Positions 20,218 through 34,318 of a DNA stretch of 64,000 nt are shown piece by piece. Numbering within the stretch: the first letter of the stretch is position 1; each line of letters begins with the position of its first letter. The stretch is from Phormidesmis priestleyi BC1401. Lineage in GTDB: Bacteria > Cyanobacteriota > Cyanobacteriia > Leptolyngbyales > Leptolyngbyaceae. The DNA lies in assembly GCF_001650195.1 (NCBI RefSeq), contig NZ_LXYR01000007.1:62001-126000 (forward strand), given 5' to 3'. The notes beneath the pieces are model-generated. The model was not told the DNA's origin. It did no database searches and was given only the letters and a program-made list of their open reading frames with translations. The position numbers and the translations under genes are program-made.

Positions 20218-20415
20218 CTATGGCATTTGAGAACCTGGCTCTAAGCCCCACTGATGCTTAAGAAAGTGACGATACATCGTTTCACGCATGACCATTTGCT
20301 CATAGAGCTTGATCAAAAAGTCTTGAGCTTGCTCATGGCTCATCTTTTCGACTTGGGTTTCAAACGATCGAATGCTGAATCTTTGTTCCAGAGACAGTTC
20401 TACAGGTTGGTTCAT
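20218..20415 (-). CDS. nblA: Phycobilisome degradation protein NblA
   Basis: A 65-residue helical protein that directs Clp-dependent breakdown of phycobilisomes during nutrient starvation. The sequence MNQPVELSLEQRFSIRSFE, then KLYEQMVMRETMYRHFLKHQWG and a final SQMP match the NblA family closely. The true start is the ATG at 20415; an in-frame extension to 20562 exists but lies outside the family's conserved part. nblA genes are usually induced by nitrogen or sulfur starvation. I did not find a clear NtcA site in the upstream gap. Confidence 0.93.
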   Translation of the reverse strand: MNQPVELSLEQRFSIRSFETQVEKMSHEQAQDFLIKLYEQMVMRETMYRHFLKHQWGLEPGSQMP

Positions 20416-20788
20416 AATACACTCCAATGTAAAAGAGAGTAGGTCAGCTAGAGAATCATTGGTTTGGAAAGCCGTTAGTAGGTTCTCGTTGGACTGGATT
20501 GATTTTTCAAAGATACCCAATGAATCAATCAACCTGTCCCTTGCTATTACAAAAGATAACAACTATTTGACAAAACGACCATACCCCGCTCGGATTACTT
20601 TAGCAAAGGTTCTCATACCTCATTGGAAGTGAGCCTCAAAACGGTATGTATCGCGACAGACTAGCAGAAATTTTGGTAGCGATTATGACAAAAGGGAGAC
20701 TTATTGATCAGGTAAATCTTTCGTTCGACAGTTGCATGATTAGATCTTCTCAACATGTACTGGTTGAACATTCTCACTGAAAATGCCG
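20416..20788. other. Upstream region of nblA
   Basis: About 370 bp between the nblA start and the 3' end of the PP2C gene, all minus strand. It should hold the nblA promoter and any starvation-response elements. By eye I see no GTA-N8-TAC NtcA box and no strong hairpin. Confidence 0.4.
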
Positions 20789-21532
20789 CTAATAGTCACT
20801 GCGGCTCAGACTCTCGATCGTCACAATCACGACTGTAATATTGTCTCGCCCGCCATGATCTTTTGCGGCATTAATCAGGGCAGAGGCGGCTTTCTCACCG
20901 ACCTGGATCGACTTCAGTTGGTTTGTGATCAATTGGTCAGAAAGCTCTTCAGTCAAGCCATCGCTGCAAAGTAACAGGCGATCGCCCGGTTGCACAGACA
21001 GCGAGTTGACATCAACTTTCTGAAGGTCTTCTCGCCCTAGACACTGAGCAAGAACGTGACGTAGTGGGTGAGTTCGCGCTTGGTCAGGAGTGATTTCGCC
21101 TAAACGCATTGCCCGCGCCACCCAAGTGTGGTCTTCTGTGATTTGGTCTAGTTTTGACCCGTGCAGACGATAGAGCCGAGAATCACCAACGTGAGCACAT
21201 AAAGGTTGGTCATCTCGAAAGATCACCACGACGACCGTAGTCCCCATGTCCGATCGTTCCGGGTGCTGCTGTTGATCATCTAAGATCGCTTGATTTGCCT
21301 CTAACAAAGATTTCTCTAACAAATCTTGTGAAGGAATCGCTGCGTTCCAATGAGCATCTAAACATAACTGAATGACTTGCGTCACTAGACGACTGGCTTC
21401 TTGCCCCCCTGCGTGCCCACCCATGCCATCTGCCACGATAAAAAACCGCCCATCTGAGTCGAGGTGATAGGCATCTTGGTTGACAGCACGGATCAAACCC
21501 GTATCCGTCATCCCGGTGAAGAGGCATTTCAT
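20789..21532 (-). CDS. PP2C-family serine/threonine phosphatase (Stp1/IreP type)
   Basis: A 247-residue Mn/Mg-dependent phosphatase. Metal-binding motifs are VADGMGGHAGGQEAS near residues 34-48, HVGDSRLYRL and LLLCSDGLTEELS, with GGRDNITVVIV near the C-terminus. It removes phosphate from Ser/Thr in bacterial signalling. It is followed upstream on the same strand by a UbiB kinase, a DUF6825-like gene and a kinase-fold protein, so a signalling cluster is plausible. Confidence 0.9.
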   Translation of the reverse strand: MKCLFTGMTDTGLIRAVNQDAYHLDSDGRFFIVADGMGGHAGGQEASRLVTQVIQLCLDAHWNAAIPSQDLLEKSLLEANQAILDDQQQHPERSDMGTTVVVVIFRDDQPLCAHVGDSRLYRLHGSKLDQITEDHTWVARAMRLGEITPDQARTHPLRHVLAQCLGREDLQKVDVNSLSVQPGDRLLLCSDGLTEELSDQLITNQLKSIQVGEKAASALINAAKDHGGRDNITVVIVTIESLSRSDY

Positions 21533-21564: not shown

Positions 21565-23433
21565 TTAAGGCATTCGTTCATAACGATCGAGCTTAATTAA
21601 CAATCGGATCAACACGATCGCGGCAGCAAGTGCGGCAACTGCCATCGCAATGGCTAACCAGAGATAGTGACTCACAAACAAAATAGTCGCAGAAACCGTA
21701 AACGCACAGGTCAGCAGCGTGTAGTTAGTGCCCATGTTCACGCCACTGATGCGTCGCAGAACGCGATCGGTTTCGGTCGATCGCACGCGCACGCGAATAT
21801 CACCTCGCTCTAGTTTGTCTAGCGTATCTTCAATACGACGGGGCAACCCAAACGCGGTGCTGCCGACTTGAACCGCTTGACGACTTAGTTCATTCAGCAG
21901 GCTTCCCGTCTCTGAGGAGGAATTTCCGTTGGTCATAAGTTGCATTGCAAAAGGTTTTGCAACCTCCATAAAGTTAAAGTCTGGGTCTAAGCCTTTGCCC
22001 ACCCCTTCTAAAGTGGAAAAAGCACGCATCACAAACGTGAATGTTGCCGGAAAGCGAAACGGCTGATCGTAGGCAATTTCATATAGGTCGTCGCTAATAG
22101 CGCTGACAGACTGATCCTCAAAGGGTTTATCCATGAAGTGGTCTAACATGAACTGCACCGATCGCCGCACTGGACCCATGTCATCAGTGGGAGCCAATGC
22201 CCCTAATGCAACCAGAGACTCAACCACCCGATCAGCATCTTTCTGCGCCACCCCAAAAAAGGTATCCAATAACTTCTCGCGGGTGATGGCTTGCACCTGC
22301 CCCATCATGCCAAAGTCATAAAAGATTAGAGAGCCGTCGGGGCTGACCGCAATGTTGCCAGGGTGAGGATCTGCGTGAAAAAATCCATTGTCCAGCAGTT
22401 GATGGAGATAGGCTCTAGCCCCCATTTGGGCAAGTTCTTTACGATCGAGTCCGGCTGCCTCTAAGGCTTCATAATGGCTAATCTTAATTCCAGGAGCATA
22501 TTCTAGGCTCAACACGCGGGGGGAAGTAGAACGCCAGTAGACTCGCGGCACTTTTACCCAGTCCATGCCTCTAAAATTGCGGCGGAAGGTGTCTGCGTTG
22601 CGCCCCTCGTTGAGGTAGTCGATTTCTTCCCAGAGGATTTTGCAGCACTCGTCGTAAATGCCGAGCCAGTCGCGCCCTTTGCCCCACTCTGGATGGTTTT
22701 GAAAATAGCGAGTAATGCCCTTGAGAATTTGCAGATCAATTTCAAAGAGTTTGCGAAGTCCGGGACGCTGAATTTTAACGACAATCTCTTCGCCAGAGTG
22801 CAGTTGCGCTCGGTGAACCTGCCCTAAACTAGCGGCAGCCAGCGGAATCGGATCAAAGCTGCGAAAGAGTTCTGCGATCGACTTGCCCAAATCTTGCTCG
22901 ATAGTCGATTCGACCTGCTCATAGCTAAACGCTGGAACGCGGTCTTGCAGTTTAGATAATTCTTCAACAAATTCTGGTGCAAACAGGTCGGCGCGAGTCG
23001 AGAAAAGCTGCCCAATTTTGATGAAGGTAGGTCCAAGATCTAACAGCGTCTCGCGAATCCAAACTGCCAGGTTCCTTCGTCTCGTCGCCTTTTTCTCGTC
23101 TGAAATGCCGCCCTGATAGCTCCACGACTCTTTATAGAGCCACCTCGCCCCAACCAGCTTGAGCACAAATGCCCAAATGTCGATAAAGCGACCCCGACGT
23201 GAATAATTTTCTCGACTCCAGCGATAGGCTTTTGCAGAGTGGAGTTTCCCCATTGATTTACGGGTTCTATCAGGCATTGCAGGGGGCAACGCTATAGCGT
23301 TAAGTGGGAGTTGCTCAGGGCGATCGTGGAGATCAGCACCCGTGACTGACTCCGCCGTTTCTATAAAAATTTCGCTGTGCGAACGCTGAGGCGTAGTGGA
23401 GTCATTTGGAGGAACAGACACTCGACTTTCCAA
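21565..23433 (-). CDS. AarF/ABC1/UbiB-family atypical kinase (copy 1)
   Basis: A 622-residue ABC1 protein. The family-specific A-rich loop appears as AAASLGQVHRAQL, the nucleotide lysine in EIVVKIQRPG, the catalytic loop as FFHADPHPGNIAVSP and the DFG equivalent as FYDFGMMGQ. Two TM segments lie at the C-terminus (about 565-610). ABC1 proteins support quinone and isoprenoid-lipid metabolism in bacteria and plastids; the exact role of each cyanobacterial copy is not established. A second, shorter copy lies at 39637-41391. Confidence 0.88.
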   Translation of the reverse strand: MESRVSVPPNDSTTPQRSHSEIFIETAESVTGADLHDRPEQLPLNAIALPPAMPDRTRKSMGKLHSAKAYRWSRENYSRRGRFIDIWAFVLKLVGARWLYKESWSYQGGISDEKKATRRRNLAVWIRETLLDLGPTFIKIGQLFSTRADLFAPEFVEELSKLQDRVPAFSYEQVESTIEQDLGKSIAELFRSFDPIPLAAASLGQVHRAQLHSGEEIVVKIQRPGLRKLFEIDLQILKGITRYFQNHPEWGKGRDWLGIYDECCKILWEEIDYLNEGRNADTFRRNFRGMDWVKVPRVYWRSTSPRVLSLEYAPGIKISHYEALEAAGLDRKELAQMGARAYLHQLLDNGFFHADPHPGNIAVSPDGSLIFYDFGMMGQVQAITREKLLDTFFGVAQKDADRVVESLVALGALAPTDDMGPVRRSVQFMLDHFMDKPFEDQSVSAISDDLYEIAYDQPFRFPATFTFVMRAFSTLEGVGKGLDPDFNFMEVAKPFAMQLMTNGNSSSETGSLLNELSRQAVQVGSTAFGLPRRIEDTLDKLERGDIRVRVRSTETDRVLRRISGVNMGTNYTLLTCAFTVSATILFVSHYLWLAIAMAVAALAAAIVLIRLLIKLDRYERMP

Positions 23434-23475: not shown

Positions 23476-23802
23476 TTAGATAGAACGACTACGATGGCTT
23501 TGTAGAGCTGATCTGAGTTGGGCAATCTCGGCGCGAAGGTCGTCGATCGTCGCTTGCAAATCTTCAGTTTGAGACTCTACGCGCACTCCAGTCGAACCCG
23601 TTCTAGCCTGCATCGCGATCTCTTCTTCGCGGGCTGCTCTTTCGGCAACCTGATCGACGAAGATTCTTAAATTTTCTCGCTGCTCGGCATCAAATTTGCC
23701 TAACTCGCTGAGGGCATTGGTGACCCCGTTTTCTAGCTGTTCGTAGGCGATTTCGGCGATCGCTCGACCCATAAAAAAGGCGTGAACCAGAGAGGTGTTC
23801 AT
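23476..23802 (-). CDS. DUF6825-like conserved cyanobacterial protein
   Basis: A 108-residue protein starting MNTSLVHAFFMGRAIAEIAYEQLE, with a C-terminal coiled coil (about 75-100, DLQATIDDLRAEIAQLRSAL). This matches what I remember of a conserved cyanobacterial/plastid family of unknown function. No enzyme motif. It lies between the kinase-fold gene and the UbiB gene, all on the minus strand with small gaps. Confidence 0.6.
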   Translation of the reverse strand: MNTSLVHAFFMGRAIAEIAYEQLENGVTNALSELGKFDAEQRENLRIFVDQVAERAAREEEIAMQARTGSTGVRVESQTEDLQATIDDLRAEIAQLRSALQSHRSRSI

Positions 23803-23871: not shown

Positions 23872-25491
23872 TTAAAGTTTTGGGTCGTTCTTTGAAGTCG
23901 GAACTACGGGAACTGCCTCGCGATTGGTGCCAGGAGTAGATTGAGTGGGCGGCACTGGGTCGCTCGTCGCTGGAGCGGGTGCAGTCGAGGGCGCGATCGC
24001 AGGAGCCGAGCCAGCCGGAATCGGGTCAGACTTCACGGTTGGGGCAGCCGGGATGGGTTTAGCAGACGATCGACGAGGCGTTCCTGATGAAATGGACGGA
24101 GCAGCCACTTCTTCCCTATTATTCGCAGGGAGAGGCGCATTATTTGAGGATTTTGATGTAGGTGAAGCACTCCGAGGAGATGCCAAATTATTTTGATAAT
24201 CCCCTGGAACCGCACCTGATTTTTCAATCGGGACATCAGACATATCTCCTTGAGGAGTCAGCGTTCCTTTCCAATCTTTTGAGGGGAAGGCTTGATTGGG
24301 ATGAAAGAAGCTAGCACCCGGAGCGCGAGCGGCACTGAAACGTAACGCCAACCCAAACCCCACCCCGATCGAGACAGCAGCCGCGCTCGTTATTCCAAGA
24401 AATTTAGGCAGACGTTGACTAATGCCGAGCGGAATCGCCATTGATGCTAAAGACAGCTTACGAGGCGGAATTGCGGAAATCGATTTAGGTGCAGAAGGGG
24501 GTTTCTGCGGAGCGATCGTCGCCGGAGATGGGCGTTTGGTGGCGAGATTATCTTCCTGCACGATCGCGGCTTTGACAGGTTCTGACTTTGGTAAAACGGG
24601 TAACGAGGTGGCGATCGGGGGAGCCACCTGTTTTTTGGCGACTTCTAAAACTGGCTCTATTAGTTGAGCAGGCTGACTAGGAGTCGTCAGCGCCGTAGCA
24701 GAGGCGAGAGGAACGGCTTCAAGGGGCAACAGGTTTAGCCAATCAGCGATCGTTTGAGGGCGATGAGTTTCATCAGAGGTCATTCCTCGCAAAATCGCTT
24801 GCTTGATTGTTGGATTCCACGATTGATCGAATTGAGGAGATCTGGGAGAACGGGCGGATAGCAAATAATAGAGAGTGGCAGAGAGGCTGTAGAGGTCGAT
24901 CGCGAATCGGTTCTCGGCGATCCTAGGTTGATTGGGAGGCGCAAATTCGTTGAAGTCAGAACGATTCGTCTGAGGTGAGTTGACGGCACTCGCGACTTCG
25001 TGGGCGATTCCAAAGCCAACCAGCACAGCTAGCTTAGTGCCGGGGCGACGAATGATCGAGCTAGGTTTGAGATTGCGGTGAACTAGCCCGTTGCGATGGG
25101 CAATCTCAATCGCTGATCCAATTTGTCGAACGTAATGAATTGCCTCAGCTTCGGGCAATGCTCCGTTAAATTTGACCTGTTCTGCCAGCGTGTGCCCTGG
25201 CACATGTTCCATCACGAGAAAGGGAAGGTTTTCTTCTTGAAAGAAGTCGAGAACTCGGACAATGCTGGGATGTTGACTTCGGGCAAGAAGTCGCGTTTCT
25301 TCGACAAAGCGCTGGTGCAACTGAGGAAAACTGCGCGTCACCTGCAAACTAGACTCTAGGGTTTTGATGACGACAATCTGATTCAAGAGCGTTTGAGTTG
25401 CGAGATAAGTGATGCCAAGTCCTTCCTCTCCCAAAGCTTGATTTAACAGGTATTTACCGCTTTGTAAGGTCATTCCTGGTGTCAGCTTCAT
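23872..25491 (-). CDS. Protein-kinase-fold protein lacking catalytic residues (pseudokinase)
   Basis: A 539-residue protein with a Hanks-type kinase domain at residues 1-255. It is followed by a Pro/Ala-rich linker, one TM segment at about 367-385 (FLGITSAAAVSIGVGFGLAL) and a long Pro/Ser/Thr-rich extracytoplasmic tail. The ATP lysine (VVIK, K43) and the alphaC glutamate region remain. The catalytic loop, however, reads HRNLKPSS at 138-145 rather than HRDLKPxN, and the DFG motif is GFG at 159-161. The catalytic Asp, loop Asn and metal-binding Asp are therefore all replaced. A scaffold or regulatory role, perhaps sensing through the tail, is inference. Confidence 0.85.
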   Translation of the reverse strand: MKLTPGMTLQSGKYLLNQALGEEGLGITYLATQTLLNQIVVIKTLESSLQVTRSFPQLHQRFVEETRLLARSQHPSIVRVLDFFQEENLPFLVMEHVPGHTLAEQVKFNGALPEAEAIHYVRQIGSAIEIAHRNGLVHRNLKPSSIIRRPGTKLAVLVGFGIAHEVASAVNSPQTNRSDFNEFAPPNQPRIAENRFAIDLYSLSATLYYLLSARSPRSPQFDQSWNPTIKQAILRGMTSDETHRPQTIADWLNLLPLEAVPLASATALTTPSQPAQLIEPVLEVAKKQVAPPIATSLPVLPKSEPVKAAIVQEDNLATKRPSPATIAPQKPPSAPKSISAIPPRKLSLASMAIPLGISQRLPKFLGITSAAAVSIGVGFGLALRFSAARAPGASFFHPNQAFPSKDWKGTLTPQGDMSDVPIEKSGAVPGDYQNNLASPRSASPTSKSSNNAPLPANNREEVAAPSISSGTPRRSSAKPIPAAPTVKSDPIPAGSAPAIAPSTAPAPATSDPVPPTQSTPGTNREAVPVVPTSKNDPKL

Positions 25492-25554: not shown

Positions 25555-28281
25555 TTAGGACTTTGGGGTGTAGTGGTGTGCTAGATACGCCTCGGCTTCG
25601 GCTCGATCGTGCACTTTCCCATCCAACGTAACTGCCAGCAAATCATCTAAAATTTGCTTGAACTGCCGACCTGGTTGATAGCCCAGTGCTTTGAGATCGT
25701 TGCCGTCTAGAAGTGGCTTGACATGCGCCCAAACGGTCAAATAACACCAAATCTGTCTGCGAATCGATCGGGAACTCTTGACCGCTACGAGCATTAAGAG
25801 CGGCAGTTCGTAAGGTTTTAATTGCTGCGCTATCTGGCTTGGCGGCTGACGGGTTGACAAATTCGCCAACGCAGATTGAGCGGCTTCAAGCTGGTCTAAT
25901 CGCTCGGTGCCATCCGCCGAGAGTTGCAGGTTTTGGGCAACAAGAGCACGATCGCTCGGTGCCAGATCCGCGATCAGAACTTCTAGAAGCACCTGCCAGT
26001 GAGTCAACGTTTGGGAGCGATCGAAGCGACGCAGCCAACGATCCGCCAAGCGTAATTGCCACCTTAATTCGTCGTTTAACGTGAGACTGGGATGAATGCA
26101 GCTCAATGCTCCCAAATGATCTAGCTGCTTTAACGCTGCCTTCCAATAAGACGATTGCAGAATGTATTTGAGTTCTGATTTAAGACGAGTTTGCAGCGCG
26201 GGGGCACTGACTCGACCTGCCACTTGACGGTTTTGGACTTGTTCATAAATGCCACTGGCGATCGCATAGCGAATATAGCGTTCGGTTTGTGGCTCAATCT
26301 CAAATCCTAGCCGCACTGCAAATCGAACGGCTCGATAAATTCGGGTGGGATCTTCGATAAAACTATTGGGGTGCAGGACTCGAATTTGTTTTGCCTGCAA
26401 ATCTAGCGCTCCGCCGAAGAAATCTAGCAGATCACCTGAACGGGGATTAGTCAGCCGCAGCGCCATTGCGTTGATGGTGAAATCTCGACGATAGAGATCT
26501 TGACGAATCGAACTTGCCTCAACTTCTGGGTTTGCCGCTGGGTAAGGATAAAACTCAGTTCGGGCGGTGGCGATGTCAATCCACAGCGAGTCAAAGGTGG
26601 GATCTTTGTGCCACAGCAGCGCAGCAGTTTGAAATCGTCCGTGAATGTCTAGACGCGCATCGGGATAGAGACTTTGCAGCGATCGCGCTAACTCCACCCC
26701 TGCGCCCACGTCTGCCGAGCGATGAAACCCATCAACGACTAAATCAACGTCAGTCAGCGTCACGGGTTCTTGAGAATTGGTCAGCAGCAAATCGCGCACG
26801 CCTCCGCCTACTAAATAAAGATGCCAACCGCGCTGTTCTGCCTGATGTGCCGCGATCGCTAATAATTCTTGCAGGTGGAGAGAGAGCCGATCGAGACTAA
26901 TTTTAGGTTTTGAAGTCTGGATTTTGGAGTTTGAAGGGTTCGTCTCATCTCTAGGGTGAGTATTGGCTTGATGAAGTTGCCGCAACACATCTGTGCGCGT
27001 CACAATGCCAATGAGTAGACCGCGATCGAGTACAGGCAACCGACCAATGTCATAAGTGACCATCAACGCCTCGATTTCTGGTAATCGCGTCTCAGGCACG
27101 ATCGTCTTCACGTTCGTGGACATATACCCTTTAACTGGGGCGTGACCAAATCCGTGATGAAAGGCGATGTCTAAGTCACGACGAGAAATAATCCCGACTA
27201 GCTGATCATCGGCATCCACAACCGACAAACCCGAATGACCATAGCGTAAAAGAATGCGTTGAGCTGCCTCGATCGTCGTATCGGGGCGGATCGTGCGAAC
27301 GGGCGATGACATCAATTCTCGTGCGGTGGGCGGCGGCGGAATTTGTGCCTTGAATCGCGTCAGAAGCTGGGTCAAGACTACTTGAAAATCGCCGTCTTTC
27401 AGCGTCACAGCGGCAGCTTTGGAATGTCCGCCTCCGCCCAGAGGTTTGAACAACTCATTGAGATCGGTGCCCTCGATGCGCGATCGACCGATCACACTCA
27501 GCACGTTTCCATCGTCAACCTGACAGTTGGCTCCTCGACAATAGCGGTGGGTCAACAGCAGCGCATCACTTTCAGTCAATTCCACAATTCGAGAAGCGAG
27601 GCTAGAAAGTCCGGGTATATAGTCCTCAGTTTTTAGCGTCACCCAAGAGAGAATGTAGCCTTGAATCGTTTCGGACTGTAAATTTTCGAGTGCCACACTC
27701 AGCAGATCTTGCAGCATCGGCGAGAGTCCGGGATCGACGTATTCTGCGATCGCCCGCAAATTTGCCCCCTGAGTCATCAACCACGCTAGCGCCAGGGCAT
27801 CTCGTGCCGTTGAGTGGTCAAACGTCAGCGATCCGGTATCGACGTGAATACCTAGCGCCATTGCCGTGGCTTCGATCGGAGTCAGCAAAATCTTCTCCGT
27901 CTGAAGTCGTTCAGCGATTAACGTGGTCGTCGCTCCAACCGCTTCAACCTGACGTTCTTGAGCAGAAATATCGCTCTCTGCATCTTGATGATGGTCATAA
28001 ACCGTGATGGAAATGTCGGGCAGATCTAACCATTCTGCAACGCTGCCTAAGCGATCGCGCCGTTGAGCATCAACCACAGACAGAGAGCGGATGGTTTGCG
28101 GGTTCACCGATCGCCGTTCAATTAGCGCATATTCATCGCGATATAGGGCTAAAAAATCTCGCACCGTGGGATGGGCACCCCCCGACAGCACAATCCGCGA
28201 TCCCGGTAGGAGACGCGATAGCCCGATCGCGGCACCTAAGGTATCGAAATCTGCCGTGGCATGACATAGAATCAGATCCAT
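25555..28281 (-). CDS. DHH-CBS-CCA/poly(A) polymerase fusion (tRNA nucleotidyltransferase)
   Basis: A 908-residue multidomain enzyme. The N-terminal DHH phosphoesterase-like part (about 1-310) contains [28 protein letters not shown] and VYDHHQDAE. Two CBS repeats follow (about 315-440). The nucleotidyltransferase head begins near 475 with [11 protein letters not shown] and DVDLVVDGF, then [32 protein letters not shown] and a helical tRNA-binding tail. It likely adds A (or CCA) to tRNA 3' ends, with adenine-nucleotide sensing by the CBS pair; whether it adds A only or CCA cannot be told by eye. It is divergent from psbZ. Confidence 0.85.
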
Positions 28282-32978: not shown

Positions 32979-34318
32979 TTACTCTGACCCTTCTACACCC
33001 TGTCCAGTTAAAGCCCGTTCAGTGTTGGACGTTTGACGACGAATCGGTGATTCGCATTGGGCGATCGACCGACAATCACGTCGTTCTCTATAGCGCTGTA
33101 GTCTCTCGATATCATGTAGAACTGCGGCGGGTTAACTCTGTTTGGGAAGTCGAAAGTTTGGGTGCAAACGGCACCTATTTAGACGGCAAACGGATGACTC
33201 AAGTGCCCATCAGAAATGGAATGATTATTCGGTTGGCACGATCGGGTCCTAATATTCAAATTCACGTCGGGGTCTCTGCTAGCCACGAAGCAACGATGCT
33301 AGCGGGCGATCGCACCGTGCCGCAGCAACCCCAACTTAATGCAGTCGCGGCTTTAGACGACGACATCACCCAACCTCTGCCTGCAATGGGAGTGCTTGAA
33401 AGTCAGGTTCCTGAGCGATCAACGGCGATGGAACCACCCAGTGAGAAGCCCAGTTTATCAGGCAACATCACCTGTGCTCACCTTCGCAAAACACCAGACT
33501 TGCGATTTTGCATTGACTGCGGCGCGCCTCTAAGAGTTCAGCAGACGATCGGACGCTATCAGGTCGTGAAGCTTTTGGGTCAAGGTGAGATGAGCTTTAC
33601 TTATCTAGTTTGGTGCGATGGCAAACATTGGGTGTTGAAAACGCTAAATCCCAATTGGGTGAGACACCCCAAGGCACTCGATTTGTTTGAACGAGAAGCC
33701 AAAGCCCTCAGCCAACTGAGTCATCCGAGCATTCCTCACATCGTGGATTTTTTTACGATCGAGCGACAGCCCTATCTGGTCATGGAATTAGTTTCTGGAC
33801 GATCGCTGTTTCAGCAGGTCACAAAGTGGGGCGCGATTCCTCAAAAACAAGCGATCGGCTGGATGCTAGAACTGTGTGAAGTCCTAGAGTATCTACATCA
33901 ACTGTCGCCTCCGGTTTTACACCAAGATATTAGACCGCACAACTTAATCCGGCGATCGGCTCCAACTGCCTTTGGCGAGATTGCTTTGGTCGATTTTGGG
34001 GCGATTAGAGTTTTGAGCTTAGAGGCTAAACACCGGACTAGCGCGATTAGCTACAGCGCACCCGAACAGTATCAAGGAGAGATCAGTCCTGCTTCAGATT
34101 TATATTCTCTAGGAACAACGCTGGCGTTTTTGTTGTCGGGTCAAGACCCCGGCGAGTTTTATCGCTATCGAGAGCAGGGATACCGCTTTTATGCGGAGTA
34201 TGTGCCTGGGTTAAGCCCTGAGGTTGTGCAGGTGATTCGCAAATTGACCCACCCCGAAATCAGCGATCGCTACGCATCAGCGCCAGAAGTTTCGGAGGCA
34301 CTGCGGCAAATTATTTAA
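32975..34318 (+). CDS. FHA-domain serine/threonine protein kinase
   Basis: A 447-residue protein with GTG start. An N-terminal FHA domain (about 20-90: RIGRSTDNHVV, SRYHVEL, NGTYLDG) is followed by a linker and a partial zinc ribbon (C167, C179, C182). A Hanks-type kinase domain runs from about 195 to 447. Key residues are kept: K222 in VLKTL, the catalytic loop HQDIRPHN (D318, N323) and DFG at 340-342, then SYSAPEQY. It therefore looks active, unlike the kinase-fold protein at 23872-25491. FHA on the same chain suggests autophosphorylation-dependent partner binding, possibly with the preceding FHA protein. Confidence 0.87.
   Translation: MITLTLLHPVQLKPVQCWTFDDESVIRIGRSTDNHVVLYSAVVSRYHVELRRVNSVWEVESLGANGTYLDGKRMTQVPIRNGMIIRLARSGPNIQIHVGVSASHEATMLAGDRTVPQQPQLNAVAALDDDITQPLPAMGVLESQVPERSTAMEPPSEKPSLSGNITCAHLRKTPDLRFCIDCGAPLRVQQTIGRYQVVKLLGQGEMSFTYLVWCDGKHWVLKTLNPNWVRHPKALDLFEREAKALSQLSHPSIPHIVDFFTIERQPYLVMELVSGRSLFQQVTKWGAIPQKQAIGWMLELCEVLEYLHQLSPPVLHQDIRPHNLIRRSAPTAFGEIALVDFGAIRVLSLEAKHRTSAISYSAPEQYQGEISPASDLYSLGTTLAFLLSGQDPGEFYRYREQGYRFYAEYVPGLSPEVVQVIRKLTHPEISDRYASAPEVSEALRQII

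Follow-up and report, generated by a model that had tools for sequence, protein, structure and literature searches.

The window, by which we mean the whole 64,000-nucleotide stretch of Phormidesmis priestleyi BC1401 DNA analysed here, probably encodes a membrane-anchored, catalytically dead Hanks-type pseudokinase that serves as a scaffold or allosteric partner. The gene, an ORF of 539 aa with an ATG start and a Pkinase match, lies at 23872–25491 on the minus strand, as do all features of the protein given below. As read from the aligned sequences, the residues for phosphotransfer are gone throughout the clade of its nearest relatives, and the fold, the β3 lysine, the helix-C glutamate, the transmembrane (TM) segment and a juxtamembrane motif are under purifying selection. 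Since residues were lost repeatedly at this gene position and the protein is under selection, binding of other molecules, and not catalysis, is probably what the fold is retained for.

The protein scores 99.2 bits with Pfam Pkinase (PF00069), for which the cut-off is 31.7. Its kinase-fold domain (residues 1–262; 24706–25491) was modelled by AlphaFold2 with a mean pLDDT of 92.1 from a 111-row alignment, into which 110 of the 148 listed kinase stretches were taken, and the structures in the PDB that match it best are those of bacterial PknB/Stk1 and PknA. AlphaFold2 run on the full-length protein with a 12-row alignment reached a pLDDT of 47 and was set aside. With a Pkinase score above the cut-off and a two-lobe fold the protein classes as a Hanks-type Ser/Thr kinase fold. 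The β3 (VAIK) lysine K43 (25363–25365), in a motif reading VVIK here, and the helix-C glutamate E65 (25297–25299) are retained; in the alignment column of E65, 53 of 54 non-cluster kinases carry E. The catalytic loop reads HRNLKPSS, with HRN for HRD (residues 138–140; 25072–25080) and S145 for the metal-binding loop Asn (25057–25059), and DFG is replaced by GFG (residues 159–161; 25009–25017). A kept fold and ATP lysine combined with these three substitutions had been claimed in a sequence-only reading, and model and residues bear this out. The further claim that all three catalytic residues are lost holds for HRD-Asp, loop Asn and DFG-Asp, but not for the usual pseudokinase triad of β3 Lys, HRD-Asp and DFG-Asp as described in PMC12599244, of which two are lost because the lysine is retained. 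Classed by sequence, where loss of Lys, HRD-Asp and/or DFG-Asp marks a pseudokinase, the protein is one through HRN and GFG.

Hydropathy and conservation across families place a single hydrophobic segment at residues ~363–387 (24331–24405; ending in GVGFGLALR), with a Kyte-Doolittle peak of 1.84 over 19 residues. It is followed by the juxtamembrane motif QAFPSKDWKG (residues 400–409; 24265–24294), presumably on the outside face, and by a Pro/Ser/Thr/Ala-rich C-terminal tail (23872–24264); past residue 400, P, S and T make up 57 of 139 residues. The TM segment and Pro/Ser/Thr-rich tail noted earlier were recovered in this way. The same arrangement, a TM end of pattern G.G...LR and then LR..QxFP, recurs in the kinases found at the same gene position in other genomes, which we call cluster kinases. 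LR..QxFP is present in 39 of 53 cluster kinases, absent in 22/22 members of the active paralogue group described below and in all 24 other kinase domains of the own genome; the looser pattern R..QxF occurs in 46/53 cluster kinases, 1/22 paralogues and 4/22 own-genome domains, and we rely on the stricter pattern. The window protein shares all marks of the group, lying upstream of a DUF6825 gene, falling into one tree group with the others and carrying LR..QxFP. One cluster kinase ORF (L071:4326-5423, G011) ends inside the TM segment, either by a draft-genome frameshift or by true truncation.

Searching 42 genomes from the window's family yielded 11 relatives that align along most or the whole of the protein, from genera g1, g6, g12 and g14; one of them, from Phormidesmis priestleyi ULC007, is 72% identical over the protein. 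Across this clade of 12, window protein included, K43, E65, N140 and G159-F160-G161 are invariant, and the positions of HRD-Asp, loop Asn (T in six, S in four, A in two) and DFG-Asp are substituted in every member; the Ala-Pro-Glu segment is lost as well. The alignment of homologues proposed in the sequence-only reading therefore gives H(R/H)N and GFG in all 11 nearest relatives. Decay in a single strain or a sequencing artefact is thereby ruled out: the frame is open and the substitutions recur in another 11 genomes, which span four genera, and nothing was found in favour of either.

Selection on the kinase domain was estimated by the Nei-Gojobori method in 8 genome pairs. Here dN/dS was 0.046–0.130 in the window clade, compared with 0.032–0.121 for the active paralogue and 0.023–0.099 for PphA in the same pairs (the UbiB of G030 left aside), ratios that are rough because several dS values exceed 1. 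Invariant columns in the clade amount to 97 of 262 in the kinase domain, 0 of 98 in the linker, 8 of 27 in the TM segment, 7 of 26 in the juxtamembrane part and 3 of 126 in the tail from residue 414. These figures also bear on relaxed constraint, under which the domain would be a drifting relic kept only since the TM segment, the tail or the gene order matters. Such drift would be in keeping with substitutions that differ between genera and with degenerate groups outside the window clade, where kinase-domain dN/dS is 0.09–0.20 and that of PphA and UbiB in these pairs 0.02–0.08. In most pairs outside the clade the kinase-domain value is roughly 2 to 8 times as high as that of PphA or UbiB, so that part of the wider loss pattern may be relaxed constraint. 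It would also be in keeping with an ORF at the same place in G210 (L166:4379-5872, family f23) that is no longer a kinase to Pfam and aligns to the kinase profile with 49 bits. For the window protein we regard drift as improbable in view of the low dN/dS in its clade, the contrast between kinase domain and linker, and N140, G159, K43 and E65 being fixed.

Conservation is unevenly distributed along the domain. The nearest non-cluster kinases, an active cyanobacterial paralogue group (L213 and relatives) with ~43–49% identity over the kinase domain, differ in having VAIK, HRD, Asn and DFG intact, and their mean pairwise identity of 0.73 is like that of the window clade (0.70). At this like divergence the window clade is at least as conserved in the N-lobe (0.87 vs 0.81) and from β3 to helix C (0.87 vs 0.77), and far less conserved in the catalytic loop (0.80 vs 0.91) and the activation loop/P+1 segment (0.60 vs 0.80). 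Such a kept N-lobe and relaxed activation/P+1 segment would be expected if contacts of the N-lobe or nucleotide site were selected and substrate phosphorylation was not. The maintained non-catalytic function suggested by the sequence-only reading gains support from this pattern, together with the shared motif loss and the purifying selection. The kept Lys and Glu, invariant in the clade, and the intact predicted fold could likewise be explained by weak or unusual catalysis, that is, a kinase still working by metal-independent chemistry or at low activity. CASK, a GFG kinase, is argued to act by unusual chemistry. In cyanobacteria, SpkE (Slr1443) of Synechocystis is a known Hanks-type protein without the HRD-Asp, reported as inactive (PMC2176072) and then by one group as active (PMC11863333); it resembles the window protein in this loss, as far as the description in PMC2176072 allows comparison. 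We nevertheless consider remaining kinase activity unlikely, as none of the 12 clade members retains HRD-Asp, loop Asn or DFG-Asp, the Ala-Pro-Glu segment is gone and conservation of the activation/P+1 segment is poor. The kinase domains listed from two genomes of family f6 (G055, G116) keep both HRD-Asp and DFG-Asp without exception.

A switch to another enzyme activity of the fold, AMPylation or glutamylation as in SelO or SidJ, has precedents among bacterial pseudokinases (PMC12599244) and could make use of the retained ATP-site Lys. SelO and SidJ, however, keep an Asp in the DFG position according to the same review, which the window protein lacks, and its catalytic cleft is not specially conserved; we hold such a switch to be very improbable.

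Bacterial pseudokinases are known, most of them without an assigned function. The sequence-only reading had called bacterial membrane pseudokinases few in the literature, which is true only in part: the 2025 review PMC12599244 treats several families, many of them membrane-associated. Among the bacterial pseudokinases described in the parts of this review that we drew on, no matching family was found. ActPs2 shares HRN but combines it with a β3 Arg and a DFG deletion (PMC12599244), and the window protein has the β3 Lys and GFG. CP1 is partly cyanobacterial, without TM segment and fused to COG3899 (PMC12599244); the window protein has a TM segment and only kinase domains by Pfam. DLHK proteins also have no TM segment, keep the HRD-Asp and have a degraded ATP-binding Lys, although one from Pseudomonas shows GFG (PMC12599244); the window protein is the reverse in TM segment, HRD-Asp and Lys. 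EssB/YukC is alike as a membrane pseudokinase working by scaffolding, but it is part of type VII secretion and degraded in all three motifs including the Lys (PMC12599244), and no type VII secretion genes were seen in the cluster of the window protein. The PknB/Stk1 PASTA kinases are alike in fold and give the best PDB and NCBIfam matches; assignment to them was rejected, as NF033483 scores 132.8 bits where its cut-off demands 450, no PASTA domain is among the Pfam matches and the catalytic residues are lost. Among the papers listed from the open-access literature on pseudokinases of cyanobacteria, Leptolyngbya included, and of bacteria at large, none gave an account of this gene position.

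The kinases at the same gene position were compared in a 62-row tree computed with the catalytic columns left out, using 49 of 52 cluster rows (the long-branch kinases L162, L164 and L174 were omitted) and 13 of 54 non-cluster rows. Four sequences stand outside the 52-row set: L179 (a contig-end fragment, G022), L246 (G038), L247 (G010) and the L166 ORF of G210. In this careful tree the cluster kinases form one side of a branch (support 96/82; recovered in 98% of bootstrap trees), with support of 100/99 for the window clade; a quick tree of 106 rows also gave the cluster kinases as a single split, weakly supported (62). Among the 52 cluster kinases the Lys is kept in 45, the helix-C Glu in 30, the HRD-Asp in 23, the loop Asn in 34 and the DFG-Asp in 16; Lys and both Asp are kept together in 14, 5 of 39 in the window's family vs 9 of 13 in other families, and HRD-Asp, loop Asn and DFG-Asp are jointly lost in 17. 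Intact relatives, which would have spoken for decay in one strain, are absent among the 11 nearest, but do occur among the cluster kinases of other genera and families, all five key residues being kept in 10 of the 52. With intact kinases in this position elsewhere, the window protein is best seen as a derived pseudokinase and not as part of a uniformly dead family.

On the tree of 49 cluster rows (computed without column 65) HRD-Asp must have changed at least six times, and DFG-Asp at least six times as well. These are counted as changes and not as proven losses, although losses are more likely because the outgroup kinases are intact. A single loss common to every degenerate relative is rejected by AU tests (HRD p 3.3e-7, DFG p 2.4e-54), with p values that are indicative only because the groups were named after the motifs had been seen; the alignment used had residue 64, not 65, as the helix-C Glu column. 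By these sequence comparisons the lineage at this gene position has lost catalysis several times. In 30/30 non-cluster kinases of other genomes, picked for the most part as best matches, the Lys, the HRD-Asp, the Asn and the DFG-Asp are intact, so the substitutions shared by the whole window clade go beyond chance; 3 or 4 of 24 further kinase rows from the own genome deviate at these residues. The extreme is the protein of G210, whose Lys and DFG Asp are gone together with the first two residues of HRD, and which keeps WRL...QSFPAQADW after its TM segment. Such repeated loss at an orthologous position, down to a protein with TM segment and QSFP kept, supports the reading as a membrane-anchored scaffold or allosteric partner.

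The gene is part of a cluster on one strand. In order of transcription this comprises a CCA/poly-A polymerase (DHH-CBS-PolyA_pol; 25555–28281), the upstream end of the conserved cluster, then the pseudokinase, a DUF6825 gene (23476–23802; PF20711, 123 bits), a UbiB/ABC1 atypical kinase (21565–23433; PF03109, 283 bits), a PP2C phosphatase (20789–21532; Pfam, 72 bits) and, as downstream neighbour, the phycobilisome-degradation protein NblA (20218–20562; PF04485, 87.5 bits), all on the minus strand and separated by 63, 69, 42, 32 and 226 bp according to ORF coordinates. DUF6825, UbiB and PP2C had been named as same-strand neighbours in advance, correctly by these matches. The phosphatase appears to be of PphA type, scoring 275 bits with PDB 2j82/5iti, which we take to be PphA of a thermophilic Synechococcus, and 139 bits or less with other PP2Cs. 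A promoter/terminator scan of the region added nothing. The order DUF6825-UbiB-PphA is that of Synechocystis sll1769-sll1770-sll1771 (PG18, SpkI, PphA), and from gene order we infer that the last three genes of the cluster PcnB-kinase-DUF6825-UbiB-PphA correspond to Sll1769 (PG18), SpkI (Sll1770) and PphA.

In the window's family DUF6825 is present in 41 of 42 genomes and a kinase of the cluster type in all 42 (39 in the 52-row set, G010, G038 and the fragment in G022). The kinase lies directly upstream of DUF6825 on the same strand in 35 of the 38 family genomes with judgeable adjacency, that is, all except G009, G010, G022 and G039 with their contig ends. In G035, G036 and G038 it lies apart from DUF6825-UbiB-PphA, in the first two still beside the CCA polymerase. 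The phylum-wide search covered three scored candidates per genome. Outside the family, a kinase was found upstream of DUF6825 at 13 of 74 loci (loci around DUF6825 matches from 28 other families), belonging to 8 families, and at none of the loci examined in f6 or in f7, the largest sample. G210, with its strongly degenerate kinase at the same place, is a 14th locus; a kinase 2.4 kb from DUF6825 at L155 (f14) is outside the cluster-kinase count. At f3, g66 and f24 loci the CCA polymerase adjoins DUF6825 with no kinase, so an older neighbourhood either gained the kinase by insertion or lost it. Direct adjacency of the polymerase to DUF6825-UbiB, with no kinase between them, is seen at L104, L105, L149 and L168. 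NblA often follows PphA, also in families that have no kinase there, as in the window (20218–20562, minus strand) and at L086, L087, L100, L106, L115, L126, L129, L130 and other loci.

Sll1769/Alr4514 has been listed under the name PG18 among the proteins of plastoglobules and cyanoglobules, with enrichment when nitrogen is deficient (PMC12923008), and PphA has been described as the PII phosphatase (PMC6603209). SpkI (sll1770) lies upstream of pphA, and the same account has the PII kinase as not identified (PMC11863333); SpkB has been proposed for this role (PMC10651672). Through its linked genes the window protein is tied to cyanoglobule proteins (PMC12923008) and also to PII dephosphorylation, a step whose counter-kinase has yet to be firmly established (PMC11863333, PMC10651672). 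A role of the window protein itself as PII kinase is unsupported, the catalytic residues being absent and SpkB being the published candidate (PMC10651672).

A cytoplasmic kinase domain acting through its N-lobe as scaffold or allosteric partner would be anchored to either the thylakoid or the plasma membrane by way of the TM segment and the QxFP..W motif. The domain may adopt a nucleotide-dependent shape without the bound metal pair, and nucleotide binding may persist. By linkage, PphA, SpkI and PG18 are candidate partners, and this phospho-signalling set (PphA, SpkI/ABC1K, PG18) might, as a weaker inference, provide the clients; an active sister kinase, paired through the N-lobe, might be the client instead. 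Nitrogen status and thylakoid remodelling are the common theme of the neighbours, which makes a membrane scaffold for them a reasonable though unproved reading. The link to PphA and SpkI is not obligatory and any role would be accessory, since the kinase stands apart from the trio in three family genomes and the trio occurs without it in many cyanobacteria, including most loci outside the family. It is doubtful that the non-catalytic job was selected from the start, as a platform coupling PphA and SpkI, and with them nitrogen status, to PG18-bearing thylakoid lipid droplets, with at least six losses following; if true, the cluster kinases would document, step by step in nature, how an active kinase turns into a scaffold that retains only the fold. 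With intact, half-lost and fully lost versions of one position in living relatives, the order of loss and the roles of the residues are directly testable.

Other kinase-like genes of the same genome also deviate from the canonical motifs. A second probable pseudokinase (L233; G000:C11:95637-96392, plus strand) reads VLE, HQNLNLDS and QFG. An ORF of 1411 aa (L231/L232; G000:C34:31668-33269, minus strand) contains a pair of kinase-like stretches; Lys, HRD-Asp and DFG-Asp are missing from the first (HRG, GCR), and the second has HRD/DFS. At L217 (G000:C14:36510-38069, minus strand) two kinase genes lie side by side, one with NFG for DFG and with HRD and Asn intact. The window itself carries a further kinase domain at 33557–34276 on the plus strand, reading HQDIRPHN and DFG.
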